Shown: positions 3,524 to 22,033 of the stretch, piece after piece
Numbering within the stretch: position 1 is the stretch's first letter
How the letters are laid out: the number at the start of each line of letters is the position of its first letter
Origin: a virus
Direction: 5' to 3' (one strand)
Virus record (IMG/VR): IMGVR_UViG_3300027969_000269
Coordinates: 1 to 33,572 of that record
Length of the DNA: 33,572 bases
Notes under the pieces: model-generated
The model's database searches: none
What the model saw: only the letters and a program-made list of their open reading frames with translations
What the model was told of the DNA's origin: nothing
Translations under genes and position numbers: made by a program

Positions 3524-3643
3524 AATTATCTGGGAGATAAAAACCCAAGAATTAACTAGGCATTAAATCCCGCGTTAATTTACCCGAAAATTATCAGGTA
3601 ATAAATTAACAAAAAATTGCCAAATATATCAATGCACTTTTTC

Positions 3644-3855
3644 TGCGCGTGTGTGCGCGTGTGCGCGCGTGTGCGCGTGTGCGCGTGTGTGCGCGTGTGC
3701 GCGCGTGTGCGCGTGTGCGCGCGTGTGCGCGTGTGCGCGCGTGTGCGCGTGTGCGCGTGTGCGCGTGTGCGCGCGTGTGCGCGTGTGCGCGCGTGTGCGC
3801 GTGTGCGCGTGTGCGCGTGTGCGCGCGTGTGTGCGCGTGTGTGCGTGTGTGTGCG
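3644..3855. repeat. 212-bp alternating purine-pyrimidine (GC/GT) tract, Z-DNA-prone
   Basis: Every step over these 212 bases alternates purine and pyrimidine without a single break. The + strand is made only of TG, CG, GC and GT steps, arranged as irregular repeats of GTGTGCGCG units. Sequences of this kind are the classic substrate for left-handed Z-DNA under negative supercoiling. Open frames exist in all registers simply because no stop codon can form; I call no gene here. Both borders are sharp: TTTTTC before, GCGAGGGC after. Confidence 0.9.
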
Positions 3856-3997
3856 GCGAGGGCGGCAAAACGTCAGGCGGCGCAATCTGTCGGCGCTCGA
3901 CGTCGCAAATCGATCCACGACCCCGCCGCGCGCTCAAATTGCGTAAGCTGCAAATGGGTTCAAATAGCTATTGCGCAAGCCGTCCCATGTCTCAGGC

Positions 3998-4011
3998 GTT
4001 TTGATCAAAAC
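3998..4011. promoter_or_regulatory. 14-bp perfect palindrome, operator candidate
   Basis: GTTTTGATCAAAAC is a perfect palindrome 121 bases before the first island gene. Its symmetry suits a dimeric repressor. No bound factor is identified. Confidence 0.35.
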
Positions 4012-4050
4012 AGCTTGCCAAGCTAGCCGCCAAAAATACCCGCCTGAAAA

Positions 4051-4093
4051 AAGTCAAAAATTGTTGATTGACTTGCAAGCGCCTTTCTATCAA
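4051..4093 (+). promoter_or_regulatory. Candidate promoter with overlapping inverted repeat
   Basis: AAGTCAA (4051-4057) and TTGACTT (4068-4074) form a perfect 7-bp inverted repeat. It overlaps a weak promoter candidate: TTGATT at 4064-4069 and TATCAA at 4088-4093 with an 18-base spacer. This lies 39 bases before the ATG at 4133 and would drive the GC-rich island, with the repeat as a possible repressor site. Confidence 0.35.
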
Positions 4094-4132
4094 TCTCTCA
4101 AATGTCATTAAGACACCAACCAATAAAACCCA

Positions 4133-4579
4133 ATGAACACCGAACAAAAACACGACGAAGCGCTTAACAGCGCCGCCGCATTATTAACCCTAGCTTGCGC
4201 AGCGCTTGAACGCCAATTCAACAGCGCCGTCGATCTAAAGCTCTTTGCTCGACGCGCCCGCAAGGACGCTGAAAAGGTCGCGCGTTACGTCGCGCAAGGA
4301 CGCGACGCTACCGAAGCGCGCGCAAGCGCTCAAGAATACGCCGCCGCAGCTGAAACAGCCGCCGCCGAAGTAAATGAGCGCCTAGAAGAAATTAAGACAG
4401 CTTGCGCCCAAGCTCGCGAGCTTTGCAAACCCTTTGAAGCGCGCCACGATTGGCGCGACGGACTTGGCTTGATTGAGCGCCGCCTTTTCATGAAGCTCGA
4501 CGAAGCCAACCGCAGGGCAACCGAAGCTGCCGCAAATCTTGACGCCGCGATTGAAAGCGCGACCTGCGCCCGCCAATAA
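4133..4579 (+). CDS. Ala/Glu/Arg-rich helical protein, first island gene
   Basis: A 148-residue protein, almost entirely predicted helix, rich in Ala, Glu and Arg, with long coiled-coil-like stretches (for example ATEARASAQEYAAAAETAAA around residues 60-80). I recognise no family. Codons are strongly GC-rich (CGC for Arg, GCC/GCG for Ala), unlike the AT-rich flanking arms. The ATG follows an A/C-rich leader (AATAAAACCCA) with no Shine-Dalgarno sequence. It opens a run of eleven plus-strand genes closed by the terminator at 8534. A structural or DNA-organising role is possible but not shown. Confidence 0.6.
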   Translation: MNTEQKHDEALNSAAALLTLACAALERQFNSAVDLKLFARRARKDAEKVARYVAQGRDATEARASAQEYAAAAETAAAEVNERLEEIKTACAQARELCKPFEARHDWRDGLGLIERRLFMKLDEANRRATEAAANLDAAIESATCARQ

Positions 4580-4641
4580 CCCCCGCGCTGTTTCGATCCT
4601 AGCTGTCCCACTTGTCACACCTTCCAACCCAATCCCAACCC

Positions 4642-4947
4642 ATGAACGCCCCCGACCTTCACCCCTTAGTGAAACAAAGCTCTTACGTGCCTGAGTTTGA
4701 CCTAATGACCCCGCGCAAGGATCCTGCGCTCGACGCGCTGCGCCTTGCCTTTATTGCCGCGCTAAATCTCGAACAAGCCGCGATTGACCTTCACATGTCC
4801 CGCCCGCTAGCTAAGCGCAAGCCCGACGAGCTTCACGCGCGCGACGTCGCGCATGAGAAAACCCTTATTCTTTATTGCGCTTTGAAAGACTATTCTAGCC
4901 GCTTTGATGAAGAAGGGCTTGGGTATTCTTATCTTCATCAAAGCTGA
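4642..4947 (+). CDS. Hypothetical GC-rich island protein
   Basis: A 101-residue protein beginning MNAPDLHPLVKQSSYVPEF. The centre is helical (LDALRLAFIAALNLEQAAIDLHM), the C-terminus more aromatic (YCALKDYSSRFDEEG). No family recognised. The ATG at 4642 is preferred over a TTG at 4612; the intervening 30 bases are C/A-rich leader of the same type seen before the other island genes (CAATCCCAACCC). Sixty-two non-coding bases separate it from the previous gene. Confidence 0.55.
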   Translation: MNAPDLHPLVKQSSYVPEFDLMTPRKDPALDALRLAFIAALNLEQAAIDLHMSRPLAKRKPDELHARDVAHEKTLILYCALKDYSSRFDEEGLGYSYLHQS

Positions 4948-4980
4948 CTAAGCCGCCCCGCAATCTCGATCCTTCCCTCC

Positions 4981-5310
4981 ATGAACAAAAGACAAACCGC
5001 CGTTGACCGCGCCAACCGCACCGAAGCGGCAGCGCTCGAAACACTTAGCCGCGCCGCCGAAGCTTGCAACGCCGCGATGGACGCGCACACCCGCGCGACC
5101 AAGCGCTGCGCTCAGGCGCGCGAAAAAATCCACGCCGCGCGCGACGCCGCCGCCGCGCTACATGCGCTAATTTGCGCCGAGCTGGACGCCAACCCCGCCA
5201 ATCCCCGATTGATTGAGCTTTACCATGAAACTAAGGCGCTCGACGCCCGCGCGCATGAACGCCTTGAAACTATCAACGTATTGATGGACAGCTGCCCCTT
5301 CCAAAATTAA
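4981..5310 (+). CDS. Ala-rich coiled-coil protein
   Basis: A 109-residue protein of near-continuous helix (NRTEAAALETLSRAAEACNA, then ATKRCAQAREKIHAARDAAA). It resembles in composition the proteins at 4133 and 7137, so the three may be diverged paralogues or simply share the island's Ala/Arg bias. The start follows a pyrimidine-rich leader (CCTTCCCTCC). No functional motif is visible. Confidence 0.55.
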   Translation: MNKRQTAVDRANRTEAAALETLSRAAEACNAAMDAHTRATKRCAQAREKIHAARDAAAALHALICAELDANPANPRLIELYHETKALDARAHERLETINVLMDSCPFQN

Positions 5311-5319
5311 GCCGCCGCC

Positions 5320-5520
5320 ATGCCTTACCTTAATACCGATAAAACCGCCGCGACGATTGCCGCGCTCATGCGCGCCGCCGAAGATTACAACTTGGGCGAT
5401 TTTGATGACCGCGCGGCGATTTGCCGCGAGCTTGCGCGCGACCTAGCCCGCGAGCTATCGATCGAAACCGAAGCGCGCGCAGCCGCCTTGCGCGACGCCG
5501 AAAACGACCGCGCCAACTAA
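5320..5520 (+). CDS. Small acidic/basic helical protein
   Basis: A 66-residue protein, MPYLNTDKTAATIAALMRAA..., with an acidic bend (YNLGDFDDRAA) between two helices. No family recognised. It begins 9 bases after the previous stop in the context GCCGCCATG and is followed 11 bases later by the next gene, so the island genes appear to be read as one transcript. Confidence 0.5.
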   Translation: MPYLNTDKTAATIAALMRAAEDYNLGDFDDRAAICRELARDLARELSIETEARAAALRDAENDRAN

Positions 5521-5531
5521 CACCCGCCGCC

Positions 5532-5774
5532 ATGATAATAACAATACAGCTGGACGGCATGGGATCAATCCACGCATGGCGCGGACGCGTCGAACCTTTC
5601 CGCGTAAGCTCTTACCTTTACACCGCCGACGGAAAGGAAGCTGAGCTATTTATTCAGGAAGGGATGGGCGCGGAGGAAGCGCTTGAATACTTAACGACGC
5701 GCGAGCGCCGCGAGCTTGCGCGCGGGTATTCGATCCAAACCAAAAACCTTCCTGAGGACTACTTTCCCTATTAA
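5532..5774 (+). CDS. Small mixed alpha/beta protein, hypothetical
   Basis: An 80-residue product starting MIITIQLDGMGSIHAWRGRV. Unlike its Ala-rich neighbours it has alternating strands (IITIQL, RVSSYLYTA, AELFIQEG) and ends in an aromatic tail, so it probably folds as a compact domain. An in-frame opening extends back to 5421 without an ATG in good position and would overlap the previous gene, so the ATG at 5532 is used. The family is unknown to me. Confidence 0.55.
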   Translation: MIITIQLDGMGSIHAWRGRVEPFRVSSYLYTADGKEAELFIQEGMGAEEALEYLTTRERRELARGYSIQTKNLPEDYFPY

Positions 5775-5794
5775 CCCTTTCCCTACATACACAC

Positions 5795-7117
5795 ATGAAC
5801 CAACCAACCCAACCCACCCCAACCCCACTAGTCAACGTTCACGCTTTGACCTACATTGAAACCGCCTCGCATGGATACTTGCGCGCGCCGTTTGATGAGC
5901 TGTTAAAGCTGCCGCACTACGAGCTGGACAAAATCACGCGCTATTCACTCATCGATCCACGCAAGCGCCTAGCTTACTTGGAAGAAGATTGCGACCTTGC
6001 GCACTTTATCCGCGCCGCGCAAATCAGCGCCGACGATTGGCAACGCGTCCCGCGCGACCACGTTGACGAAATAGACCGCGCGCCGCTTGCGCAATTTGCC
6101 CCCGCGCTTATCAAGCCCTCCAATCGCTTGACGATTGACGCGGGAAGGAAAAAGCTTGCGCGCGCCTTCGCCTTTGTAGCTGCCGCCATGTCCATCGATC
6201 CAAACCGCCAAGCGCTCAACGGCGTCCAGCTTGAAATAGAAAAAGGCAAACGACTTGGCTTGTTAATCGCGACGGACGGACGCCGCTTGCATGCTTATAG
6301 CTTCGAGCTTGCCCATGTCGCGCCTTGCGACCTTAGCGCGTTAATCCCGCGCGAAGCTGTTGAAAATTTGATCAAACCCCGCGCGACGCTTAACTTCAAA
6401 CGCGTCGAAAAAGAGAAACACAGCGGACAAATTGCCATGACATTTGAGCGCCACGAAGCTCTCAGCGATTGGCTTGCGCCGATTTGGATCGAGATTGACG
6501 GCGAGCGCTATAAAACCGAAACAGCTTACACCTTCCCCAAATGGCGCCAAGTAATCCCGAAAGACCGCCAGCTTACCGCGCCGCTTGACATAAGCTTACT
6601 AGCTGCCGCGCTCGACGCGCATGAACGCGCTTGCGCCGACTTTGTAGCCGATTGCCTTACGCTCTCAGCGCCACGCATACAAGGCGCCTTCGACGTTGGC
6701 GGCGCTGCACATCATGACCGAACAAAGAAAGACATTGAGCGCCAAGCTAAGCGCGAGCTGCGCGCGTCAACCCTAGCGGAAAATCTAGCTATTGAAATTA
6801 TCAACCCTGAGCGCTACCAATACTTAGCGCTGCCCAAGCTGCGCCAGCTTATAGCAAAAATAGAAAACAATACCCCGCGCCTGACTTCGACGGACAGCTT
6901 CGATCCTGACGCGCATTTGAACTTGCGCGCGGAATACGTCCGCGACGCCGTTGAAGCTTGCGCCTTGCTTAACCAGCCGCCCGCCGTTGACGTTGACTTA
7001 GACCCCATAAAACGGACGCCCAAGCTGTCCCCAATCCAATTTGGGAACGCCGCGCACCTTACCAGCTCGACATGCAGCGGCTACGTTTTGATCATGCCCA
7101 TGCGCTTAACCGCTTAA
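5795..7117 (+). CDS. Beta sliding clamp homologue with N-terminal DUF7007-like domain
   Basis: This 440-residue protein appears to be a DNA polymerase III beta clamp (DnaN) homologue carrying an extra N-terminal domain. Residues 25-75 (SHGYLRAPFDELL, then RLAYLEEDCDLAHFI) resemble the DUF7007-type domain of phage and plasmid proteins. From about residue 115 clamp features appear in order: LARAFAFVAAAM, LNGVQLEI, IATDGRRL (158-165, the ATDGHRL motif of DnaN), TFPKWRQVIP (246-255, matching the Y/F-P-x-x-x-x-V-I-P motif of domain II), LRAEYVRDAVEA (377-388, domain III) and a terminal YVLIMPMRL (430-438), the hallmark DnaN C-terminus. It would form a ring that tethers a polymerase to DNA. No polymerase or clamp loader is in the window. 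It is the longest gene of the GC-rich island. The clamp call is strong; the N-terminal domain name is from memory. Confidence 0.75.
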   Translation: MNQPTQPTPTPLVNVHALTYIETASHGYLRAPFDELLKLPHYELDKITRYSLIDPRKRLAYLEEDCDLAHFIRAAQISADDWQRVPRDHVDEIDRAPLAQFAPALIKPSNRLTIDAGRKKLARAFAFVAAAMSIDPNRQALNGVQLEIEKGKRLGLLIATDGRRLHAYSFELAHVAPCDLSALIPREAVENLIKPRATLNFKRVEKEKHSGQIAMTFERHEALSDWLAPIWIEIDGERYKTETAYTFPKWRQVIPKDRQLTAPLDISLLAAALDAHERACADFVADCLTLSAPRIQGAFDVGGAAHHDRTKKDIERQAKRELRASTLAENLAIEIINPERYQYLALPKLRQLIAKIENNTPRLTSTDSFDPDAHLNLRAEYVRDAVEACALLNQPPAVDVDLDPIKRTPKLSPIQFGNAAHLTSSTCSGYVLIMPMRLTA

Positions 7118-7136
7118 CCTTAACCCGCCTAAGCTC

Positions 7137-7451
7137 ATGACCTTTGACAATACACCCACCGCCGTCCGCGAAGCCAACCGCCAGCTCATGAACGCGCAAG
7201 CTTGGCTATCCCGCAAACGCACCGAATACAAACGCGCCCGCGAGGATCTAGCCCGCGCCGTCGATTGGGCGCGCGACTATCATGACAAGCTTCCAACCTT
7301 GCCCGCCGATTTGGTCGAGAAATACGCGCGCGAGATTGGCGCAGCTGCGATTGAATACATGGACGCCCGCGAAGCTTACGACGCCGCCACCGAAGAAACC
7401 ACGCGCGCGCGCGAAGCTTACAAAATGGCAACCCAGAAAAATCCCTTATGA
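7137..7451 (+). CDS. Coiled-coil protein, hypothetical
   Basis: A 104-residue, highly helical protein: ANRQLMNAQAWLSRKRTEYK, later AIEYMDAREAYDAATEETTR. The alternating acidic and basic residues with regular Ala/Leu/Tyr suggest a two-helix coiled coil. No family recognised. It begins 19 bases after the clamp gene and its stop overlaps the next ATG (ATGA at 7448-7451), so it is translationally coupled downstream. Confidence 0.55.
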   Translation: MTFDNTPTAVREANRQLMNAQAWLSRKRTEYKRAREDLARAVDWARDYHDKLPTLPADLVEKYAREIGAAAIEYMDAREAYDAATEETTRAREAYKMATQKNPL

Positions 7452-7651
7452 ACCATAAAACATACGAAATACACCCCGAGGATCGACGCGATTGGCAGCG
7501 CGCAATCCCGCAGCCGCCCCTCCCGCCGCGCATTTACCCGCCGCGCCCCAATAGCTACCAGCTACTGAGCGCGCGAGTTTTAGGCGTCGAGATTAAGCTG
7601 ACCGCGCACCGCCAACCGCTGCGCTTAACCCTCAACGCGTCAATCAAATGA
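7448..7651 (+). CDS. Small Pro/Arg-rich protein
   Basis: A 67-residue protein with a Pro-rich centre (AIPQPPLPPRIYPPRPNSYQ) and a strand-rich C-terminus (LGVEIKLTAHRQPLRLTLNA). It overlaps both neighbours by ATGA junctions (7448-7451 and 7648-7651), which is the main support for it being real. Function unknown. Confidence 0.5.
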   Translation: MNHKTYEIHPEDRRDWQRAIPQPPLPPRIYPPRPNSYQLLSARVLGVEIKLTAHRQPLRLTLNASIK

Positions 7652-7842
7652 GCTCCGCACAAACCCCCGACCTTGCCGCGACCTTAACAGCTGCGCAAGC
7701 TGCCGCAGCCGCCGCCCAATCCCCCGAAGATTGGCAGCGCGCCGCCGCCTTGCTAGCTCTAGCCCGCGCGCTTGCCCAAGCTCACGCCGCCGCCGCCCGC
7801 GTTAAACCATTAACCCCCTCAAACCATGCCCAAAAAGTTTGA
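7648..7842 (+). CDS. Small Ala-rich helical protein
   Basis: A 64-residue protein dominated by Ala (LTAAQAAAAAAQSPEDWQRA). It starts at an ATGA overlap with the previous gene and its last 17 bases overlap the next one. The low complexity makes coding status less certain than for its neighbours, although the overlaps at both ends fit the island's compact organisation. Confidence 0.45.
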   Translation: MSSAQTPDLAATLTAAQAAAAAAQSPEDWQRAAALLALARALAQAHAAAARVKPLTPSNHAQKV

Positions 7843-7996
7843 TCCCGAAACACAAGCCCGCCGCGATTTTATACGCTGGAACTTGGCAAACCCGCCGCCT
7901 GATTTTCACAAGCTGCCCGCCGAAACCCGCCGCCGTATAAAGCGCGACGCGCTCAACAGACTTAATGGCAAACCCTCAACACTTAAAAAAACCTAA
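7826..7996 (+). CDS. 56-residue basic protein, hypothetical
   Basis: This short frame encodes MPKKFDPETQARRDFIRWNL and ends RLNGKPSTLKKT. It is basic (many Arg and Lys), with an amphipathic helix around RRRIKRDALNRL, and may bind nucleic acid. The ATG follows the typical C/A-rich leader (CCCCCTCAAACC). It overlaps the end of the previous gene by 17 bases in another frame and stops 12 bases before the next ATG. The D-P-E-T-Q-A-R-R-D-F-I-R-W-N pattern looks like a real protein rather than chance. Confidence 0.5.
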   Translation: MPKKFDPETQARRDFIRWNLANPPPDFHKLPAETRRRIKRDALNRLNGKPSTLKKT

Positions 7997-8008
7997 ACAA
8001 ACCAACCT

Positions 8009-8509
8009 ATGAAAAAACCCAAAAAGAAAAAACCCACCCGCCGCCTTGCGCCTTACCCGCCCGAGCTTGGCAATCCGCGTCAACACTTAGGAGAAAAGCG
8101 CTTTACCCCCATGGGCGTTTGGATCGGTCGCGACCCCGCCTTTTTCGTCGGGATTGATGAACACCACGCTTTGATCAAATCGCGCTGCCCTGAGGCGTTC
8201 AGGGCGCTTGTTAATTGCGCCTATAAGCTGCATGGCTTCGATTGCATACTTTGCAACGTCGGCGAAAGCGAAGCTATAAGCGAAGCTATTGAACACGTTG
8301 AGCAGCTCGCCGCTGGAATTGCCCGCTGGATCTATGGGGACAGCGCCCAAATCTACCACCAGCGCGACCCGCGCGGCTGCCCTCTTTACGTCCAATGGGA
8401 TAAAATGCCTGACAGATTGCGCTCTATTTGGGACAGCGAGCGCGGGCTGCCAATCTATTTAGAGCTGTCAAAAGAATGGCGCGAAGAATGGGAAGCCGAT
8501 CCTGAATAA
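8009..8509 (+). CDS. Conserved phage-type protein with YHQRDPRGCPLYV motif
   Basis: A 166-residue protein with a Lys-rich start (MKKPKKKKPTRR) and a C-terminal half containing AEHVEQLAAGIA-like helix and IYHQRDPRGCPLYVQW at about residues 117-132. The 'Y-H-Q-x-D-P-R-G-C-x-L-Y' motif is one I have seen in uncharacterised phage and plasmid proteins; function unknown. It is the last gene of the GC-rich island and is followed directly by the terminator at 8534-8560. Cys and His residues (LHGFDCILCNVG) could bind metal, which is speculative. Confidence 0.6.
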   Translation: MKKPKKKKPTRRLAPYPPELGNPRQHLGEKRFTPMGVWIGRDPAFFVGIDEHHALIKSRCPEAFRALVNCAYKLHGFDCILCNVGESEAISEAIEHVEQLAAGIARWIYGDSAQIYHQRDPRGCPLYVQWDKMPDRLRSIWDSERGLPIYLELSKEWREEWEADPE

Positions 8510-8533
8510 AACCCCAACCCTCCCGACAGACTA

Positions 8534-8560
8534 GGCGGCGTTCACAGCGCCGCCTTTTTT
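8534..8560 (+). terminator. Rho-independent terminator of the GC-rich island
   Basis: GGCGGCG (8534-8540), a 7-base loop, CGCCGCC (8548-8554) and six T residues (8555-8560) form a textbook intrinsic terminator 25 bases after the stop of the last island gene. Confidence 0.9.
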
Positions 8561-8569
8561 GCGCCTGAA

Positions 8570-8591
8570 CAAATCGCGGACAAATCGCGGA
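8570..8591 (+). repeat. Tandem 11-bp repeat
   Basis: CAAATCGCGGA occurs twice in direct succession (8570-8580 and 8581-8591) just downstream of the island terminator. Two perfect copies may bind a regulator or may be a simple duplication. Confidence 0.7.
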
Positions 8592-8814
8592 CAGCGCGCA
8601 GCTCGACGGACGCGCGGCGCTCGACGTCGGCGCGAGCTACCCCCACTAAGAAATCTATTTGAGGGGAGGGAGGGGGAGGGCGCTTTAGAAAGCCCACCCA
8701 GCTAAAAACCATTTTGTATTATCAAATTTATGCACTTTTTGATATGTCGGTTATACGATCTGATATACGTGACTTACATATATGGTTGACATATATCGCG
8801 ACATAGAAATTAAC

Positions 8815-8845
8815 ATAGTATTTATAGAGCAAATACTATTGCTCT
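8815..8845 (+). promoter_or_regulatory. Two mutually exclusive hairpins, attenuator-like
   Basis: ATAGTATTT (8815-8823) pairs perfectly with AAATACTAT (8831-8839) around a 7-base loop. AGAGCAA (8826-8832) pairs perfectly with TTGCTCT (8839-8845) around a 6-base loop. The two stems share bases, so only one can form at a time. The second is followed by AATAAAAAT rather than a T-run, so termination on the plus strand is uncertain. Confidence 0.5.
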
Positions 8846-8952
8846 AATAAAAATACTTAAATAGCTGGCTACGCCATTTATTTATGCTTATGCCTCCCTT
8901 CGGGGGCTACGCAAAATAAAAAGCTATTTTACCCCCACCCCCCTAAACATTT

Positions 8953-9294
8953 ATGAAAAACCAAAAACCTAACAGCCGCCGCCACTTTTCTGGATATTGG
9001 AAAAAGATCTGGAGTAGGAACCGCGAGAACATGACTAACCACATCAACAATCTGAACCGCCAGAAAACCCAGGCGAGTTTGGAGAGGGTGAAACTTGTAA
9101 AGGCAATCATCAGTAACTTGCCCAAAGAACCCATGACGGCAAGCCGCCTTCGTGATCAGGTGTCGGAGTATTGGCAAGAGTTCTATGGCGATGAAATGAC
9201 CACCACGAAAGCTTGGTGCCTGACTAGACTTTGCATAAAGCATGGCCTATTCCTAAGACAGTCCAACGGCATGTATATAATTAACGTTGACTAA
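8953..9294 (+). CDS. Probable winged-helix regulator or small phage DNA-binding protein
   Basis: A 113-residue basic protein. The N-terminal part (FSGYWKKIWSRNRENMTNHI) and the C-terminal LVKAIISNLPKEPMTASRLR followed by CLTRLCIKHGLFLRQSNGMY read like a winged helix: a helix pair, then 'I-K-H-G-L-F' leading into a beta wing. DNA binding is inferred from this fold-like pattern only. It is the first gene of the AT-rich plus-strand arm, after the structured leader, a position that suits a regulator. The start follows TAAACATTT with no Shine-Dalgarno sequence. Confidence 0.5.
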   Translation: MKNQKPNSRRHFSGYWKKIWSRNRENMTNHINNLNRQKTQASLERVKLVKAIISNLPKEPMTASRLRDQVSEYWQEFYGDEMTTTKAWCLTRLCIKHGLFLRQSNGMYIINVD

Positions 9295-9308
9295 TGTTGA
9301 TAAGTATG

Positions 9309-9324
9309 TGAATAAGTTTATTCA
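9309..9324. promoter_or_regulatory. Inverted repeat touching a start codon
   Basis: TGAATAA (9309-9315) and TTATTCA (9318-9324) are perfect inverted copies with two bases between. The right arm ends on the first base of the ATG at 9324. It could be a protein-binding site or an RNA hairpin limiting translation of the next gene. Confidence 0.35.
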
Positions 9325-9536
9325 TGATTACAAGTGAGTCAGATGACGAGCAGCTGGAAGCTATAATTGAAAAAGCAAACGCGGTTTCAAGCAACCTGGT
9401 TACGGCGTATGTAGCCATCATGTTGGATCTTGATGTAACTGAGTCAGATAGGCGTAATTTCAAATGGATGATAGATGACGCGCGGGCGCTGGTTCAGATT
9501 GTCACAAGCTTAACCAATCTAAGAAACAACAAATGA
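9324..9536 (+). CDS. Small helical protein, unknown
   Basis: A 70-residue, acidic, all-helical protein (MITSESDDEQLEAIIEKANA ... DARALVQIVTSLTNLRNNK). No family recognised. Its stop overlaps the next start (ATGA at 9533-9536). It sits between two probable DNA-binding proteins ahead of the terminase genes. Confidence 0.55.
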   Translation: MITSESDDEQLEAIIEKANAVSSNLVTAYVAIMLDLDVTESDRRNFKWMIDDARALVQIVTSLTNLRNNK

Positions 9537-10036
9537 ATGAAGAAATAGAAAATGAATGGAAAGCTTTTGTAGATGGATTAACACCTGAGCAAAGAAAAGA
9601 ACTTACGGACGCTGGATTTAACATATACGACATTAACGACGATGGTGTGCCAAAACCGCACAGATACATTTACGACCAGGAAAAGTTTTGTAGGCCAATT
9701 ACGATAAACGAATGGAAAGCGGATCTTAGGGACGAAGAAAACAACGATGGTGTAATTAACGTATTGTCATCAATTATCGCAAAGGTGATAGACGCGCTAG
9801 ATTGCACGACAAACAAAGAAGTCCTTATGCACAATGATTGCATACGACTTGCGCTTGGTTATAGAACCTATAAGTCTATGGCTGACGTTGCCAAGAAATA
9901 TGACGTCAAGCGAGCTACGATTTCCTGGCGCGTAAAGCAAATTCAGAAACGATTAAACATTGAACCAAGTATTTACATGCGCTGCACCGAAACCTGTGAG
10001 ATCTCAAAACAAAGCGCCAAGCGCCGAAAGAAATGA
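9533..10036 (+). CDS. Helix-turn-helix protein, sigma region 4-like
   Basis: A 167-residue protein. Residues 113-142 (YKSMADVAKKYDVKRATISW then RVKQIQKRLNI) form a clear helix-turn-helix of the kind found in sigma region 4 and in phage packaging or late regulators: 'S-M-x-x-V-A-x-x-x-x-V-x-x-A-T-I-S-x-R-V-K'. The C-terminus is basic (SAKRRKK). The acidic N-terminal half has no recognised domain. It overlaps its neighbours by four bases on each side and directly precedes the small terminase. It could be a packaging accessory, or a transcription factor for late genes that share the TTTGAC-N4-GGC block. Confidence 0.6.
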   Translation: MNEEIENEWKAFVDGLTPEQRKELTDAGFNIYDINDDGVPKPHRYIYDQEKFCRPITINEWKADLRDEENNDGVINVLSSIIAKVIDALDCTTNKEVLMHNDCIRLALGYRTYKSMADVAKKYDVKRATISWRVKQIQKRLNIEPSIYMRCTETCEISKQSAKRRKK

Positions 10037-10680
10037 AAGTAAGAGCCGTTGACATAGCCGAACGTTTAGGTCTTTCAAGACAGACCATTAACGCCTATCT
10101 CCGAGAAGGTATGCCAGATATCAGCATTGAAGCAGCTGAAGCTTGGTATTCCGAAAAGATGACTAGACGGACTGATAATAGTATTGTTCCGATTGATGGG
10201 GAAATCGTAGATGAGGACTTTGCTAAGATTGTCGAAAAGCACAGGGAATTAAAAGCGTTAGCATACGACCAATACCTTGAAGATTTACGCGAGCGCTCTC
10301 CGCAGCAAGCCAAGTCCTACGCTACCTACGACAAGCTTGTTAAAACCCTAGTATCCCTAGAAAGAGAATTACAAGCGCGGCAAATTGCCAATAGAGAACT
10401 TATCAAAGCTCAAACAGCTATAGACCGATTTGGTAAAGTTATTCTTTCTATCCGTAACGAAATTAGTTTATTGCCATTAAAGGTTTCCGCTAAGGCAAAT
10501 CCTGACGCGCCAGGAACAGCTATGAAAGCGATAGAAACCGAAGTTAATAAAATGCTTACGCGTCTAGCTGGTCAAGCTGATGATGTAGCAAACGAAATGG
10601 TGGAAGTTCAGATTGAGCTTCCTAAGGAAGAAATAACAGACATACCTGATGAAATCGAACCAGACGGAAATACAGTTTGA
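10033..10680 (+). CDS. Terminase small subunit (Nu1-like)
   Basis: The 215-residue protein opens with a winged-helix/HTH, VRAVDIAERLGLSRQTINAY followed by LREGMP (residues 2-28), the typical start of Nu1-type small terminases, which recognise the packaging site. A long helical region follows (about 68-145) and then ISLLPLKVSAKANPDAP (about 147-163), close to the 'L-P-x-x-x-A-x-x-L/A' segment of this family. It would bind DNA and recruit the large subunit encoded next. The stop lies 32 bases inside the large-subunit gene, which supports coupling. Confidence 0.8.
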   Translation: MKVRAVDIAERLGLSRQTINAYLREGMPDISIEAAEAWYSEKMTRRTDNSIVPIDGEIVDEDFAKIVEKHRELKALAYDQYLEDLRERSPQQAKSYATYDKLVKTLVSLERELQARQIANRELIKAQTAIDRFGKVILSIRNEISLLPLKVSAKANPDAPGTAMKAIETEVNKMLTRLAGQADDVANEMVEVQIELPKEEITDIPDEIEPDGNTV

Positions 10681-12496
10681 AAAGGCGCTAAGGCAATTAC
10701 TTGCCCCAGATCCTGATGGGGATATAATTGCATGGTTAGAAAAGAATGTTAAGAACATACCTTACTCGCCGCAGCAAGGCCCATTTAGAATTGAGTCAAC
10801 GCCATACTTAGCGCCGATACTTCGCGCGTTACAAGACCCTGAAGTTGAGACGATTGTAGTGATGGGTAATGTTCAATCTGGTAAGTCAATGATCCTTGAA
10901 TTATGGTCAGCTTTTATTCCATCAAGAACGCCTGGACCAACGTTATTACTTCAAGACGTAAATGAGAACGCACAAGATTGGCAGGAAACTCGCTTGCGCC
11001 CATTGTGGGAAAGCACACCGCCTACAAGAGACAGATTGAACAATAATCTTAAAAGCAAATGGAACACTACCCAATTTGAAAGAAACGTTATTTGGGTATT
11101 AGGCGCTCACAATACTAAGAACTTACAACGCCGTTCAATCAGATTTCTAGGTGGTGACGAGTGCTGGCTATGGCCTAATGGTGCTTTAACTCAATCGCTC
11201 GCGCGTAGAACAGCTTTTGCATGGCAAGGTAAATCGGTATTCGTTTCTCAAGGTGGCGTGGATAATGATGAATTTACTAATTTATTTAATTCTACCGATC
11301 GCGCTGAGTGGTCTTTCCGATGTGTTAAATGTGACTTTAGACAACCCTTTGAATGGAGTCAGTTGAAATACCCAGAAAACTCTAAGACAGCAACAGGTTG
11401 GAATTTAGACGCCGTAAGATCTGGTTGTGAATACGAGTGCAAGAGTTGTAAGCATAGATACCTAGACAGAAACAGCGTAAGGGCTGAAATGCTATCCAAA
11501 GCTGAATACGTCCCAATCAATACATCAGCGCCTAAAGGACGTCGCGGGTTTCATTTTAACGCTTTGTCTATGCTATGGGGATTGAGTTGGGGGGATCTTG
11601 CCGTTGAGTGCATTGAAGCCGCCAATTCAGAAAGTAATGCTGGAGATGATACCAAGCGCCGAGACTTCAAACAAAAGCGCCTGGCGCTGTCATGGAGTGA
11701 TGAACCCGACGATGATGGCGGTGAAGTATTGCCTAGCGGTTATTTAATGGGAGAAGATTGGGCTGATGAAGCTGCAAGTATTAACAGCAAGGTAGTTGCG
11801 CCTCCGTTTGATGAAGATCAGTTGAAGAATACTAGTTTTATTAAATTAAGATTTATGTCTGTGGACGTTCAGCGAAAGGGGTTTTATATCTTGATAAGAT
11901 CCTGGTCGGCAGATGGTAAGAGCCGTATTGTCCATTGGGAATACGTTGATACTTGGGAACAGGTTAGACAATTACAGGTCAGTTACAAAGTAGCTGAGAT
12001 ATTTACATTTGTGGACTCAGGCGATGGTCCAAACATGGACGAGGTTTATAGAAATTGCGCGACCTACGGCTGGAACGCCACAAAAGGTTCTGGCAATACA
12101 GATTTCCCCTGGAAGGTTCAAACGCCTTACGGAATGAAAATTGCCTATCGACCTTACTCACCAGCCAAGATAGCTCAGATTGGAAAACAGTCCTGTCGGG
12201 TGTTCCATTATTCAAATTTAATTTTAAAAGATACGCTTATGCGACTTCGCAAAGCTGGACACCATACTTACGCGTCGAATTGCGGGGACGAATACCGAAA
12301 GCAAATGCAATCCGAGCATAGAAGCCGAACCGAGACAGGTAAGCCCATTTGGTTGCAGATTGGAGATCGCCCAAATCACCTATGGGATTGCGAGACTATG
12401 GGTATTTTACCAGCTTTAATGGCTAAATTGATAGGTAAGGGTAAAAATAAAAACGCAACTGACGAAAAAGCTGTTGACAAGCCGCCTGAGTCATAA
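10649..12496 (+). CDS. Terminase large subunit, GpA family
   Basis: The 615-residue protein is the ATP-driven DNA packaging motor with a nuclease domain, of the phage lambda GpA type. The Walker A-like loop is GNVQSGKS (73-80); Walker B is IRFLGGDE (164-171). Four cysteines in two CxxC pairs (C225/C228 and C264/C267) form a zinc finger typical of GpA proteins. The nuclease part starts at SVDVQ (404-408, Asp406) and includes FVDSGDG and the closing NHLWDCE. Length is in the usual range of 600-700. The ATG at 10649 overlaps the small subunit gene. It is followed by a strong hairpin (12509-12581) that may end transcription. Confidence 0.95.
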   Translation: MKSNQTEIQFEKALRQLLAPDPDGDIIAWLEKNVKNIPYSPQQGPFRIESTPYLAPILRALQDPEVETIVVMGNVQSGKSMILELWSAFIPSRTPGPTLLLQDVNENAQDWQETRLRPLWESTPPTRDRLNNNLKSKWNTTQFERNVIWVLGAHNTKNLQRRSIRFLGGDECWLWPNGALTQSLARRTAFAWQGKSVFVSQGGVDNDEFTNLFNSTDRAEWSFRCVKCDFRQPFEWSQLKYPENSKTATGWNLDAVRSGCEYECKSCKHRYLDRNSVRAEMLSKAEYVPINTSAPKGRRGFHFNALSMLWGLSWGDLAVECIEAANSESNAGDDTKRRDFKQKRLALSWSDEPDDDGGEVLPSGYLMGEDWADEAASINSKVVAPPFDEDQLKNTSFIKLRFMSVDVQRKGFYILIRSWSADGKSRIVHWEYVDTWEQVRQLQVSYKVAEIFTFVDSGDGPNMDEVYRNCATYGWNATKGSGNTDFPWKVQTPYGMKIAYRPYSPAKIAQIGKQSCRVFHYSNLILKDTLMRLRKAGHHTYASNCGDEYRKQMQSEHRSRTETGKPIWLQIGDRPNHLWDCETMGILPALMAKLIGKGKNKNATDEKAVDKPPES

Positions 12497-12508
12497 AAGA
12501 TGAACTTA

Positions 12509-12590
12509 AGACTGTTACCTTCTTTTTTCTCCGTAATAATAGTGGCTGTTGTTATGGTGGTTGTTCGGGAGGTAACAGTCTCTTTTCTTT
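12509..12590 (+). terminator. Long-stem structured RNA / terminator after the terminase gene
   Basis: AGACTGTTACC (12509-12519) pairs perfectly with GGTAACAGTCT (12571-12581), and the stem can be extended by four more pairs with G-U wobble. Inside, CCGTAATAA (12531-12539) pairs with TTGTTATGG (12549-12557). A T-rich run (TCTTTTCTTT, 12581-12590) follows. The long branched form is unusual for a plain terminator but fits one combined with a structured RNA. Confidence 0.6.
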
Positions 12591-12600
12591 GACTATTGGC
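12588..12600 (+). promoter_or_regulatory. Late motif copy A, TTTGAC-N4-GGC
   Basis: TTTGACTATTGGC, followed by TAAAAGTT and then the ATG at 12609 (8-base gap). It starts within the T-run of the preceding hairpin. This is one of five copies upstream of late genes; it is a candidate late promoter. Confidence 0.5.
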
Positions 12601-12608
12601 TAAAAGTT

Positions 12609-12899
12609 ATGGCTTTCGTTCATTATCGCGGTTCTACTTCACCAAAGGGTATATTCATGACCCTTACTCTTGAGCAAATTGAGAACATTAAAAACAAAGC
12701 TGCTGAAATTGTTGCTGAAGGAAAAACTATCATGGAATATAAGGATAGTGGATCTGACATTCGCAAAGATTGGCCTATTGATCCACCAACTGTTCTGCTT
12801 GAATGTCGCTATGCGTTGCAGATTAAAAATCCAGCCGTATATGGTGCTATTGATAGAACTAGGGTTGGTAATATGTTAAATAACTTCAGAGGACTTTAA
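12609..12899 (+). CDS. Small head protein in the gpW (head-tail joining) position
   Basis: A 96-residue protein located between the large terminase and the portal, where lambda encodes gpW. It reads TLEQIENIKNKAAEIVAEGK then IMEYKDSG and CRYALQIKNPAVYG, a helical start followed by short strands, which is compatible with a gpW-like joining protein but not diagnostic. The start at 12609 follows late motif A by 8 bases; an internal ATG at 12657 (MTLTLEQIENIK) is the alternative and gives 80 residues, closer to gpW in length. Confidence 0.5.
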   Translation: MAFVHYRGSTSPKGIFMTLTLEQIENIKNKAAEIVAEGKTIMEYKDSGSDIRKDWPIDPPTVLLECRYALQIKNPAVYGAIDRTRVGNMLNNFRGL

Positions 12900-12904
12900 T
12901 ATTT

Positions 12905-14515
12905 ATGGCGCGCAAACCTACTACAAAAAAACCTAAGATTGGTGATAAGTCACCAAAGCTGAATAAGCAAGCTACAGGGGGGCCAGGCATATTCAGTAAC
13001 TTCGAGTCAGCAAAATTCAGCAATAAGCGTTCTTGGATCTGGAGTTCTTGGCCTACAGATTTCAAGAAAACGATGACAGTTTTCGATCGGCTCGAAACAA
13101 CGCGCAAAATGCGTTGGTTGGAGTTGAATAGCGGAATTGTAAGACAAGCGATTGATGACAATGCAACTTATTCCGTAGGAAGTGGTATTACCGCACAAGC
13201 CAGAACAGGTAATTCAGTAATTGATAAACAACTTGAGGACTATTTCCACGATTGGGCTAGAAATAAGTGCGATATTACAAATAGATTTAATTTTTACGAA
13301 CAACAGTTTATTGTTTGCCGTTTGATGGATCGTGACGGCGAGATATTTCCAATTAAGACCCGCGACGAATATGGTCGTTGCAGAATACAGCTGATTGAAG
13401 CTCATAGAGTTTCAAGCAATCAATCTGGCGCACCACCACCAAACGAAGTTGACGGAATTACCTTTGGTAAATACGGAAAGCCAACATTTTACAACGTTAT
13501 CAAATCAGACGGATCTAGCCGTAAGGTTCCAGCCAATGCTGTAATGCACGTATTTGAACCTGAGCTTGCCTCAGGCGCTAGAGCTTACTCCCCGCTTCAA
13601 CATAGTATCAATAACATTGTTGATATGCTTGAAGTGCTGAGTTTAGAGAAATTTGCTGTTAAAATGAACAGCGATATTGTCAGAACTTTAACCCGCGAAA
13701 TAGCACAATTCGATGGCGCTCAATCTGACTTTGAAGCGTTTGGTATGCGCCCTCAAGATTATCAAGGCGATGGCGTAACAAACCCAAATGAAGCTTCCAC
13801 ATTCATTGGCGGTAAGATTTTAGCATTAGCACCTGGTGAACGTCTTGAGTCTTTTCAATCAAATCGTCCTAATGCTACGTTTGTAGGTTTTAACGAACAT
13901 TTAATTCGCGACTCACTTGCTGGATTTTTACCATACGAATTTACTCACGATCCTTCGAAAGCAAGCGGCGCTTCAATGAGACTCATTGTTGCAAAAGCAG
14001 ATCGCAAATTCCAAAAACGTCAAAACGTTCTTATCAATCGCTTTTTAACGCCTGTATGGTGTTATGTTATTGCCGATGGTATCGCTAAAGGTGAATTACC
14101 TGAATGTGAAAATTGGAATAAGGTAATCTGGACAACGCCTAAGCGCGTAACTGTTGACGCAGGACGCGACGCCGCACAAAACCGCGCTGACATCGAGTTT
14201 GGCCTCAAGACTCTTGGTGAAGAATGTCAAGAAAACGGAGAACACTTCTCAACCATGATACAGCGTCGTGCGATTGAAGCTGCCGAGATTAAATCTATGG
14301 CAGAACAATACGATGTTCCTCTTTGGATGTTGTATAAACCATCTAATACAGCGCTAGGAGATATTACTGAACAAAGCAATTCTTCGGATTTAGAAAAAGA
14401 AGATGAAGAAGAAGTTTCAGTTAATGAATTAGAAGAAACCGAAGAAGGCGAAGAAGAAATTGAAAATGATTACGACGCTGAGGACGATGAACTTCAAGAT
14501 CCAATGGGAGACTAA
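12905..14515 (+). CDS. Portal protein, lambda gpB family
   Basis: The 536-residue protein forms the dodecameric ring at the capsid vertex through which DNA enters. Recognisable segments of the lambda-type portal family are MRWLELNSGIVRQAIDDNAT and YSVGSGI in the N-terminal third, RDGEIFPIKTRDEYGRCRIQ with LIEAHRV in the middle, and the downstream VMHVFEP and DPSKASGASMR. The last about 50 residues are extremely acidic (Glu/Asp runs such as EKEDEEEVSVNELEETEEGE), which is unusual and may interact with the scaffold or be removed in maturation. It lies 6 bases downstream of the gpW-position gene. Confidence 0.9.
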   Translation: MARKPTTKKPKIGDKSPKLNKQATGGPGIFSNFESAKFSNKRSWIWSSWPTDFKKTMTVFDRLETTRKMRWLELNSGIVRQAIDDNATYSVGSGITAQARTGNSVIDKQLEDYFHDWARNKCDITNRFNFYEQQFIVCRLMDRDGEIFPIKTRDEYGRCRIQLIEAHRVSSNQSGAPPPNEVDGITFGKYGKPTFYNVIKSDGSSRKVPANAVMHVFEPELASGARAYSPLQHSINNIVDMLEVLSLEKFAVKMNSDIVRTLTREIAQFDGAQSDFEAFGMRPQDYQGDGVTNPNEASTFIGGKILALAPGERLESFQSNRPNATFVGFNEHLIRDSLAGFLPYEFTHDPSKASGASMRLIVAKADRKFQKRQNVLINRFLTPVWCYVIADGIAKGELPECENWNKVIWTTPKRVTVDAGRDAAQNRADIEFGLKTLGEECQENGEHFSTMIQRRAIEAAEIKSMAEQYDVPLWMLYKPSNTALGDITEQSNSSDLEKEDEEEVSVNELEETEEGEEEIENDYDAEDDELQDPMGD

Positions 14516-14532
14516 TTTTTATTTTATATCAA

Positions 14533-15363
14533 ATGAACCATATTAAAAAAGCACTTAAAAATAATAAACCTTTGATGATTAAACCATCTGTTGCATTAGC
14601 ATACATGGAGAAAATCGAAGAATTAAATATTCCTATTGATAAAAACATTAGCGAAGTATCTCAAATCCTTGAAATGATTTTTGGTAAAGCGCCAATGATG
14701 GAGAAAAGCGGTTCAGTAGCCGTAATTCCTGTTAAGGGTGTTATCGGTAAAAACTTAAGTTCATTAGATAAGCTTTGCGGCGCTATTGATGTTGATGATG
14801 TTTCCTCATGGGTAGATGAAGTGGCGTTAGATCCAGAAATCAAAACTGTTGTGTTTGAACACAATAGTCCAGGTGGCACAGTAACAGGCGTTCCAGAACT
14901 TGCCGCTAAGATTAGAGCTTTAGGTGCAATTAAAAATACAATTTCATATACCGAAACCGATTGTCACTCAGCTTCATATTACCTGGCCTCTCAATCCAAT
15001 CAATTCCTGGCTACCGAGTCATCTGAAATCGGATCAGTAGGTGTCTATATGGCTATTCCTGATTACACCGAAGCTTTTGCCAACGAAGGTATCAAAATGG
15101 AAGTAATCAAATCTGGTAAATACAAGGGTATGGGTATCGAGGGGACGTCGTTAAGCAAAGATCAACACGATTTCCTTCAAAATGATGTTACTGAAACCCA
15201 TAATACGTTCAAAAAAGACGTTAAAAAGGTAAGAAGCATGATTAAAGACGAAGATATGGAAGGCCAATCTTTTAGCGGTAAAAAAGCTGCCGAGAAATGT
15301 ATGATTACAGGTATTTGCAGCAGCTTAAATGAAGTCCTGGAAAGAACTTCAAATATCGAATAA
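14533..15363 (+). CDS. Head maturation protease, S49/ClpP-fold
   Basis: A 276-residue serine peptidase of the SppA/lambda gpC type. The oxyanion region is FEHNSPGGTVTG (108-119); the nucleophile is most likely Ser146 in CHSASYYLAS; IGSVGVYM (166-173) and SGKYKGMG (194-201, containing the probable Lys general base) complete the family pattern. It would cleave scaffold and portal or capsid tails during prohead maturation. In lambda the scaffold is the C-terminal part of the protease gene; here it is a separate gene 24 bases downstream. Confidence 0.9.
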   Translation: MNHIKKALKNNKPLMIKPSVALAYMEKIEELNIPIDKNISEVSQILEMIFGKAPMMEKSGSVAVIPVKGVIGKNLSSLDKLCGAIDVDDVSSWVDEVALDPEIKTVVFEHNSPGGTVTGVPELAAKIRALGAIKNTISYTETDCHSASYYLASQSNQFLATESSEIGSVGVYMAIPDYTEAFANEGIKMEVIKSGKYKGMGIEGTSLSKDQHDFLQNDVTETHNTFKKDVKKVRSMIKDEDMEGQSFSGKKAAEKCMITGICSSLNEVLERTSNIE

Positions 15364-15376
15364 TTTGACAATAGGC
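15364..15376 (+). promoter_or_regulatory. Late motif copy B, TTTGAC-N4-GGC
   Basis: TTTGACAATAGGC, followed by AATTATTACA and the ATG at 15387 (10-base gap). It begins at the first base after the protease stop codon and would give the scaffold and capsid genes their own transcript. Confidence 0.5.
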
Positions 15377-15386
15377 AATTATTACA

Positions 15387-15848
15387 ATGAGCATTGAAGA
15401 AATCGTTACCAGCTTAAAAGACGCACTCACAGGCAAGTCTGCCGAAGTTGAAAATGCGCACAAAGAAGTATTAGCTGCAAAAGAATTAGCAGCTACAAGT
15501 GAAGCAAAACTTAGCGAAACATTAGCACTCGTTGATGGTCTTACAGCAGATAAAACCGCGCTGTTAGCAAAGATCACAGCACTTGAAGCTTCAGTATCAA
15601 CTCTAGCTTCAGAAAAAGAAGCGATTTCAAAACAGATTGAGTCAGCTGGTAAAAAAGCAGCTTCTATCGTAGCTTCCGCTGGCGTAGATCCTGTAGAAGT
15701 TTCACCTGTCAATATGAACGACGCTGGAAAGAGCGACGAAGAAATTTCTAAAGAGTGGGTTCTTATGAAAGAAAAAGACCCCAAAGGTGCTTCCGAATTT
15801 TATACTAAAAACCGCGCTGCGATTATTCGCGCCGCTGGAATTAAATAA
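15387..15848 (+). CDS. Scaffolding protein
   Basis: A 153-residue protein made of an extended coiled coil (residues about 5-100; repeated Ala/Leu/Lys/Glu, for example LLAKITALEASVSTLASEKE) and a short basic C-terminal domain (EISKEWVLMKEKDPKGASEF then YTKNRAAIIRAAGIK). Position between the protease and the capsid gene, coiled-coil content and a small basic end that can contact the capsid all fit a scaffold. It carries late motif B upstream, consistent with high expression. Confidence 0.75.
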   Translation: MSIEEIVTSLKDALTGKSAEVENAHKEVLAAKELAATSEAKLSETLALVDGLTADKTALLAKITALEASVSTLASEKEAISKQIESAGKKAASIVASAGVDPVEVSPVNMNDAGKSDEEISKEWVLMKEKDPKGASEFYTKNRAAIIRAAGIK

Positions 15849-15873
15849 TCTCAACCCCATATAATTAAAAATT

Positions 15874-16773
15874 ATGTCCAATAACATCGGTGGATTAACA
15901 CTCCAACTAGTTGCTGAAGAAAGCTTACGAACCCTGGTTCCACAGCTTCAGCCGCTAACCAAAATCGCAGTAACTGATTTCGGCGCTTACGTCGCTGAAC
16001 GCGGAACTACTGTTCACACTCGTTACGCTGGTAAATTTACCGCCGCTAACTACAGCAAAGCAACAGGTTTCGTAGCTTCAGACGCTGTTTCTACAGACGT
16101 TCCTGTAACCTTAGCTGACCAAAAGCACGTCACTATTGAATTTACTGACTACGAAGTTGCAACCCTTAGCTTAGATCGTCTGCGCCGCCTTTTCATGGCA
16201 CCTATGGCAAATGCCGTAGTTAAGAGCTTGTTCGACCAAGTTCTTGGTAAAGTTGACGGATCTTTCGCTTCAGGTTACAATGGAACCATTGGTAACTTCA
16301 ATCGTATTGCTGTAAGCAATATCGCTAAATCATTAACCAAAGCAAATCTTCCTCAAGAAGGTCGTTCTGCTTTAGTTTCACCTGACATTTATCAACAATT
16401 AGTTAGCGATCCTGCTGTTGCACAAGCTTTCTCTATCGGAACTTCCGACGTTATTCGCGGAAACCGCTTGGGAATGATTCATGGCATTGATTTCTACGAA
16501 TATAACGGCTTTGAAGCTGCTGGCATTGACGCTACCCTTAATGGTGTAGTATCTTGCAAAGAAGGTTTAGTTGTTGTTACCCGCGTTCCTGCTGCACCTA
16601 CCACAGGTGGTGGCGAACAAACCATCGTAACCGATCCAGATAGCCAATTCTCATACGCTCTCCGCTATTGGTATGATTGGTCTGCTGGCTTGCACAAACT
16701 TAGTGCAAATTGGTTAGTCGGTTCGTCTAAGGGTAACCCTGACGCTCTCCAACGCATTAACCTCACCGCGTAA
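15874..16773 (+). CDS. Major capsid protein (HK97-fold, P22 coat-like)
   Basis: The 299-residue protein has features of phage coat proteins: an N-terminal region ending in VTLADQKHVTIEFTDYEVAT, a middle helix LRRLFMAPMANAVVKSLFDQ, and a P-domain/A-domain segment RSALVSPDIYQQLVSDPAVA followed by NRLGMIHGIDFYEYNG, the 'G-R-L-G-x-I-x-G-F-D-V-Y' motif common in P22-like and HK97-fold coat proteins. It follows the scaffold and is followed by two hairpins (16778-16839), the second a strong terminator. It is expected to be the most abundant virion protein. Confidence 0.85.
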   Translation: MSNNIGGLTLQLVAEESLRTLVPQLQPLTKIAVTDFGAYVAERGTTVHTRYAGKFTAANYSKATGFVASDAVSTDVPVTLADQKHVTIEFTDYEVATLSLDRLRRLFMAPMANAVVKSLFDQVLGKVDGSFASGYNGTIGNFNRIAVSNIAKSLTKANLPQEGRSALVSPDIYQQLVSDPAVAQAFSIGTSDVIRGNRLGMIHGIDFYEYNGFEAAGIDATLNGVVSCKEGLVVVTRVPAAPTTGGGEQTIVTDPDSQFSYALRYWYDWSAGLHKLSANWLVGSSKGNPDALQRINLTA

Positions 16774-16777
16774 TTTT

Positions 16778-16795
16778 AGGACTCGTAGTAGTCCT
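16778..16795 (+). terminator. Hairpin after the capsid gene
   Basis: AGGACT (16778-16783) and AGTCCT (16790-16795) form a 6-bp stem with a 6-base loop, followed by TT. It is weaker than the next hairpin and may protect the 3' end of the capsid mRNA. Confidence 0.5.
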
Positions 16796-16809
16796 TTCGC
16801 GCCAATGCA

Positions 16810-16839
16810 AGAAGGCGGCTCAAATAAGAGCCGCCTTCT
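16810..16839 (+). terminator. Strong intrinsic terminator between capsid and connector genes
   Basis: AGAAGGCGGCTC (16810-16821) and GAGCCGCCTTCT (16828-16839) form a perfect 12-bp GC-rich stem with the loop AAATAA, followed by CTGTTTT. The hairpin lies inside a longer possible frame starting at 16805, which argues for the later start at 16865. Confidence 0.85.
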
Positions 16840-16844
16840 CTGTT

Positions 16845-16857
16845 TTGGACATTTGGC
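16845..16857 (+). promoter_or_regulatory. Late motif copy C, TTGGAC-N4-GGC
   Basis: TTGGACATTTGGC (one change from TTTGAC), followed by TATAGTT and the ATG at 16865 (7-base gap). It directly follows the strong terminator, so a new transcript is needed here, which supports a promoter role. Confidence 0.5.
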
Positions 16858-16864
16858 TATAGTT

Positions 16865-17203
16865 ATGTCAGACATTTGGACTACGTTCACATCTGACGCT
16901 CTTTCTATCTTAAATGAGATAGGTAAGAACGTCACCATCAAAAAAGTTCCTGGTGGAACCCCTGTAGCGCTAAAGGTGATGATTTCAACACCTATGATAT
17001 TACAGGATTTGGAAACAGGTGGTTTCCTTAATTCCACAACCTTTGAAGTAAAGGTTCTCAGGACAGATCATAACAACAATCCTGGCCTTGCAGCTTATGG
17101 TAACATTGTTACTTATAACGACCAAGACTATCGAATTGTAGCTGTTGCTGATCGCCCGCCTTCCGCTTGGGTTATCATGAGGGTTCAAACAAAGGAACAA
17201 TGA
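16865..17203 (+). CDS. Head-tail connector / neck protein
   Basis: A 112-residue protein (MSDIWTTFTSDALSILNEIG ...) with a strand-rich C-terminal half (FEVKVLRTDHNN, IVTYNDQDYRIVAVADRPPS). Size, position after the capsid gene and the late 'Y-R-I-V-A-V' strand suit a head-completion or stopper protein such as lambda gpFII, but there is no diagnostic motif. The ATG at 16865 is chosen because the alternative at 16805 would translate through the terminator hairpin. Its stop overlaps the next ATG by ATGA (17200-17203). Confidence 0.6.
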   Translation: MSDIWTTFTSDALSILNEIGKNVTIKKVPGGTPVALKVMISTPMILQDLETGGFLNSTTFEVKVLRTDHNNNPGLAAYGNIVTYNDQDYRIVAVADRPPSAWVIMRVQTKEQ

Positions 17204-18144: not shown

Positions 18145-18147
18145 TTT

Positions 18148-18582: not shown

Positions 18583-18590
18583 CATTTGGC
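18578..18590 (+). promoter_or_regulatory. Late motif copy D, TTTGAC-N4-GGC
   Basis: TTTGACATTTGGC overlaps the stop codon of the tail terminator gene (TGA 18580-18582). It is followed by AATAGATATAATCTTTCATT and the ATG at 18611 (20-base gap). TATAAT occurs here, but only 12 bases after TTGACA. Confidence 0.5.
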
Positions 18591-18610
18591 AATAGATATA
18601 ATCTTTCATT

Positions 18611-18949: not shown

Positions 18950-18962
18950 TCAATAGCGGCAC

Positions 18963-21055: not shown

Positions 21056-21058
21056 TTT

Positions 21059-22027: not shown

Positions 22028-22033
22028 TCTAAA

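Follow-up and report, generated by a model that had tools for sequence, protein, structure and literature searches.

A phage gene predicted to join a small phage domain to a sliding clamp part that lacks domain I

Introduction

The bacterial DnaN beta clamp is built of three domains of about 120 aa each, of which domain I helps to close the ring around DNA, the canonical dimer ring joining domain I of one copy to domain III of the other (I to III΄); PCNA and T4 gp45 are also six-domain rings. Sliding clamps are regarded as rings, and their peptide-binding pocket as one that works because the ring sits on DNA. The stretch of viral DNA analysed here (the window: 33,572 nucleotides, IMG/VR record IMGVR_UViG_3300027969_000269) carries a gene that an earlier note, made from the sequence, had read as a phage clamp bearing an additional N-terminal domain. 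What kind of clamp is this, and what could such a protein do for the phage?

Results

The gene and its parts

The features on which the analysis rests are the following, where ND denotes the small N-terminal domain and L001 a second contig described below.

5795..7117, plus strand: whole gene, coding for a 440-aa fusion of ND and a clamp part without domain I (ORF with ATG start; syntenic homologue in L001)
5837..6073, plus strand: ND, residues ~15–93, with the HGY...AYLEEDCD core (relatives; model pLDDT 84; remote DUF7007 similarity)
6074..6127, plus strand: linker between ND and the clamp part, residues ~94–111 (low model confidence)
6128..6547, plus strand: clamp domain II, residues ~112–251, with ATDGRRL and cleft residues (PF02767; structure match; alignment)
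6548..7114, plus strand: clamp domain III, residues ~252–440, with IMPMRL at its end (structure match and alignment)
6665..6748 (approximate), plus strand: helical stretch inserted into domain III when compared with E. coli DnaN, residues ~291–318 (secondary structure of the model, gap pattern)
4133..8509, plus strand: cluster of small same-strand ORFs holding the fusion gene (several members have L001 homologues in matching order)

The open reading frame is present on the plus strand, and all the motifs quoted for it in the earlier note are found in its 440-aa product. The assignment of the C-terminal three quarters to DnaN was correct: PF02767 (clamp central domain), the sole Pfam domain found, matches residues 119–194 (E=1.8e-7, over the Pfam cut-off), the processivity factor family phrog_947 matches residues 119–280 (E=2e-9), and TIGR00663 (dnan) aligns its positions 126–267 with residues 113–273 (E=1e-8), with a score of 34.6 bits that does not reach the equivalog cut-off of 137.65 bits. 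Judged from these profiles, the similarity to clamps is well beyond chance. For the first ~110 residues, neither Pfam nor PHROGs gave a match. A different N-terminal domain, as the earlier note had proposed, does occupy this region, although it extends beyond the suggested end at residue ~75, the foreign part reaching about 95–110.

The clamp part comprises domains II and III

ND and the clamp part were modelled separately, because a joint alignment misaligned clamp starts with ND. The AF2 model of residues 97–440 (pLDDT 73, pTM 0.77) matches residues 118–366 of the E. coli clamp with Z 21.1 and an rmsd of 2.7 A over 244 aligned residues, a range that comprises clamp domains II and III. In the alignment with E. 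coli DnaN the window protein starts at E. coli residue ~118, its nominal occupancy of E. coli 1–117 (19%) stemming from flanking linker sequence, and a clamp domain I profile picks not its N-terminus but its domain II, a paralogous domain. Pfam, the start of the alignment and the TIGR00663 score agree that the set of three clamp domains is incomplete. By sequence and predicted structure, residues ~112–440 fold like domains II and III of a clamp, with domain I absent. The structure prediction does not yield the three-domain clamp fold, and the notion of an extra module added to a clamp has to be abandoned, since the foreign domain stands in the place of domain I. The helical insertion in domain III has a pLDDT of about 54–73 in the model, and its boundaries are uncertain.

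ND belongs to a family of small phage proteins

When the full protein was searched against IMG/VR, most matches fell on residues ~10–90 and lay in small ORFs. These ND relatives are free-standing ORFs of about 80–140 aa, 30–50% identical, in many viral contigs, and a later scan for ND relatives gave 333. In a 36-row alignment (A4) an H and the AYLEEDCD motif are invariant, and D, W, S and R nearly so; the window protein conserves this core, with Y replacing the usual W. Its HMM score is partly circular, because the sequence itself is in the profile, and an independent blastp against ND relatives gave E-values down to 5e-11. Cultured phages and plasmids contain few relatives, every one labelled ‘hypothetical protein’, and within a single bacterial order 4 of 399 genomes carry one. 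No constant partner was found among the neighbours of ND genes. In contig L410 (3611–4246), ND forms the C-terminus of a 211-aa frame behind a different N-terminal segment, possibly another ND fusion.

The ND model has the order beta-beta-alpha-beta-beta-alpha-beta, for which a fold search of the PDB gave no convincing match (best Foldseek E 0.93; best VIA Z 3.5). Weak likenesses were seen to MSH2 residues 28–115 (Z 2.8), to the XPB N-terminus (Z 2.5) and to phage SF2-helicase proteins in BFVD (E 0.05–2); the idea of a DNA-binding domain by fold likeness was set aside, the scores being in the noise range. A simple alignment of the N-terminus with clamp domain I, which the earlier note had raised against its own reading, was not obtained (hhalign of the two profiles, E=0.23), and by profile ND is unrelated to domain I. 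The ND profile aligns with the DUF7007 profile over the HGW...LEEDCD core (E=6.3e-5, probability 64.5%; best E among 60 column-shuffled control profiles, 2.3e-3). Since PF22653 itself matches nothing in the window even at E 10, and its gathering score is not reached, this is a remote similarity, and of the label ‘DUF7007-like’ the likeness holds and membership in PF22653 does not.

The fusion is found in two diverged phages

A second fusion, as sought in the database survey that the earlier note had recommended, was found in contig 3300032238_001212 (L001; also L087, L089, L250 and L348), where a 513-aa protein carries ND followed by clamp domains II and III. Window and L001 share the order fusion, QRDPRG protein, further small genes, terminase subunits and portal, so an assembly artefact is unlikely. 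The fusion proteins are ~29% identical, while the terminase large subunits are 76% identical, and the fusion is kept in these two diverged phages. The gap between ~29% in the fusion protein and 76% in the terminase (89% at the portal start) is in itself unusual, and would fit either unusually fast evolution or a replacement of the early region (5795–7117 of the window, 1306–2847 of L001). Contig L255 (93–95% nucleotide identity) independently confirms the window from 8143 to 22491, across a G+C step at about 8.9 kb.

A search with profile A2 matched only L001 and L088, the latter a 392-aa clamp of the window type with neither ND nor domain I, and a scan of genome contigs returned matches resembling host dnaN. 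No further clamp fusion was recovered from viral contigs with clamp-only and P0002 queries, nor among 77 new ND loci, where a clamp lies near ND only in L416 (the L039 contig), and tblastn against cultured phages and plasmids gave no match to the whole fusion protein. A search of 16 terminase relatives (many of them fragments; positive controls included) gave no ND and no clamp, and the fusion gene therefore seems to be an accessory that some members carry. In the literature that was searched we found no description of an ND-clamp fusion or of the truncated nature of phage clamps.

In two contigs the parts are neighbouring genes: in L039 the stop of a domain-I-less clamp gene (5375–6007) overlaps the start of ND as ATGA, and in L063 ND (492–755) lies upstream of a domain-I-less clamp (1699–2346), within 1 kb. 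This arrangement suggests a functional link. ND was found in 0 of 24 other short-clamp contigs and in 0 of 50 contigs of the three-domain clamp set, and ND and clamps usually seem to occur apart; because both positive cases among the 26 short-clamp contigs entered through the ND search, we claim no statistical co-occurrence.

The cleft is kept and the ring surfaces are lost

We compared the peptide-binding cleft, defined as 20 E. coli positions whose list we take from established knowledge, with the other aligned positions. The window protein shares the E. coli residue at 14 of the 20 cleft positions vs 24 of 147 elsewhere (Fisher p=1.7e-6). The same comparison gives 74% vs 21% for 20 short phage clamps and 81% vs 26% for three-domain phage clamps; since these ordinary clamps conserve the cleft equally, its conservation alone shows no special role.

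Short and three-domain clamps differ in the two segments that carry the halves of the dimer interface. In the short clamps the occupancy of E. coli 1–117 is 7% and that of 257–315 is 6%, whereas three-domain phage clamps fill both segments to 97–98%. The window protein has 88% occupancy of E. coli 257–315, its domain III being of conserved length apart from the insertion. Mutation of I272/L273 in the E. coli clamp yields monomers, and the counterparts of these residues are T/L in the window protein, T/F in L001 and K/T in L088. In the alignment the II/III cleft of the window protein is strongly conserved, and the surfaces that would close a ring are missing or not conserved. From this anatomy we infer a clamp that has kept its cleft and does not form a ring.

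Short phage clamps carry a probably misleading name

All 20 short phage clamps tested match PHROG 3007 as well as PHROG 947 (for instance L083:3995–4561, L100:4974–5573 and L112:4998–5600). PHROG 3007 bears the label ‘RusA-like Holliday junction resolvase’, although the alignment of its members with DnaN sets in at domain II; this label is probably wrong. More than 200 phage records in GenBank/RefSeq contain relatives, many of them under the resolvase name, and GenBank already includes truncated clamps under a variety of names. The window protein, like this family, has no domain I and starts at domain II, and covers positions 10–134 of the 190 in the PHROG 3007 profile (E=4.4e-7), short of the full length; the short clamp of L083 covers 2–186. 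By alignment, the pattern of a kept cleft and a lost ring is stronger in the short clamps than in the window protein. In L083 (1855–4561) and L085 (1639–4567) the short clamp frame overlaps the end of a long ORF, upstream of it, with motifs like those of family-A DNA polymerases (a motif match only), an overlap that suggests a processivity or recruitment role for the short clamps there.

Genomic surroundings

The small-ORF cluster is followed on its 3΄ side by a terminator-like hairpin at 8533–8555. The scanned ORFs of the record encode a primase, a helicase and a methyltransferase, and none of them was recognised as a DNA polymerase; no genuine gene in the record carries the clamp-binding pentapeptide by the pattern tried. 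Both results make host partners likelier for the clamp part, the lack of a polymerase being weak evidence as the record may be incomplete.

Upstream of the cluster, at 3644–3855, lies a 212-bp alternating purine-pyrimidine repeat of about 12 copies of the 18-bp unit TGCGCGCGTGTGCGCGTG, and L001 starts within a CG/CA repeat (1–40) on the same side of its fusion gene. The cluster region (3600–8900) has 50–59% G+C vs about 33–48% in the remainder of the window, and the corresponding half of L001 is also richer (67–74% vs 59–61%). A Shine-Dalgarno-like motif precedes 1 of 36 inspected gene starts in the window, a scarcity that suggests a host initiating translation without such motifs. Among cultured phages, Verrucomicrobia phage P8625 gives the terminase match with the best coverage.

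Discussion

We propose that the gene encodes a chimeric adaptor derived from a clamp, with host proteins that bear clamp-binding motifs as its clients and ND as a second contact, a reading to which we give a probability of about 45%. Without domain I, the canonical I-to-III΄ dimer ring should be impossible. Since domain I is lost and the II/III cleft is kept, the cleft may dock onto host proteins with clamp-binding motifs (Pol III alpha, clamp loader delta, Pol IV, MutS and others), while ND, in place of the ring, would provide the second contact, its target being DNA or else a partner from phage or host. In this way the protein could redirect the replication or repair proteins of the host to phage DNA; of all the steps, the direction of this effect, recruitment and not sequestration, is the least certain. 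In a wider form the proposal is more tentative: phages may possess a class of ring-less clamps whose cleft, alone or tethered to a domain such as ND, captures host clamp-binding proteins, the window protein being a tethered form.

Could the protein still form a ring? If three of the two-domain clamp parts joined head to tail, with ND outside, they would make a PCNA-like processivity factor. Two complete clamp domains suit a six-domain trimer, and domain III is of full length in the window protein (88% of E. coli 257–315), unlike in the short clamps. Such a ring would nevertheless require a new II-to-III΄ interface, the known interface residues are not conserved, and no DNA polymerase to be served by it was recognised in the record; we regard a trimer as rather unlikely. 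A ring closed by ND itself, replacing domain I and contacting domain III of another copy, is far less plausible. ND has exactly the place of domain I and a similar size, yet the two have no profile similarity (E 0.23), clamps are absent from the ND fold matches listed, which are not an exclusive set, and ND is normally free-standing, without a clamp.

The conserved cleft, together with the loss of that part of the ring interface which domain I supplies, is also compatible with a decoy, as the earlier note had suggested: the cleft would sequester the host polymerase, clamp loader and mismatch repair from the chromosome, and ND would stabilise or localise the protein. Blocking the host polymerase would however be costly, since the phage, with no polymerase recognised in its record, seems to need it, and no effect on the host is known; a decoy is in our judgement unlikely. 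There is finally the explanation that the gene is a decaying or chance fusion without a function of its own, for example a read-through between neighbouring ND and clamp genes. Few fusions are known and the two proteins have diverged fast (~29% identity), but two diverged phages keep the fusion, the cleft and the core residues of ND, and we consider this explanation very improbable.

If the adaptor reading is correct, phage proteins that keep the pocket and drop the ring would represent a natural separation of two clamp functions, and would allow a direct test of whether mimics of the clamp pocket redirect host polymerase or repair traffic. It would also give a handle on ND, a small phage family present in hundreds of viral contigs, and would correct the probably misleading name of PHROG 3007, with more than 200 phage records concerned.

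How does this protein compare with known systems? With bacterial DnaN, the Pol III beta clamp, it shares the fold of domains II and III, the peptide-binding cleft and the C-terminal MPMRL, and it differs in the absence of domain I, in the interface residues, which are not conserved, in the insertion in domain III and in its foreign N-terminal domain. The three-domain phage clamps of PHROG 947 have the same domains II and III, but possess in addition a complete domain I and the interface segment, and ND is absent from their 50 contigs. With DUF7007 (PF22653), which comprises plasmid and chromosomal proteins, the likeness is limited to ND: the HGG...YEED core aligns with HGW...LEEDCD, while DUF7007 lacks LEEDCD and has another C-terminal half, and ND stays below the Pfam threshold. 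The short clamps of PHROG 3007, which go by the name of ‘RusA-like Holliday junction resolvase’ or of ‘DNA polymerase III beta subunit’ and occur for example in Burkholderia phages Bcep781 and BcepC6B and in Sodalis phage SO-1, also lack domain I, start at domain II and keep the cleft; they differ from the window protein in having lost the front half of domain III as well (~E. coli 257–315), and in carrying no ND.
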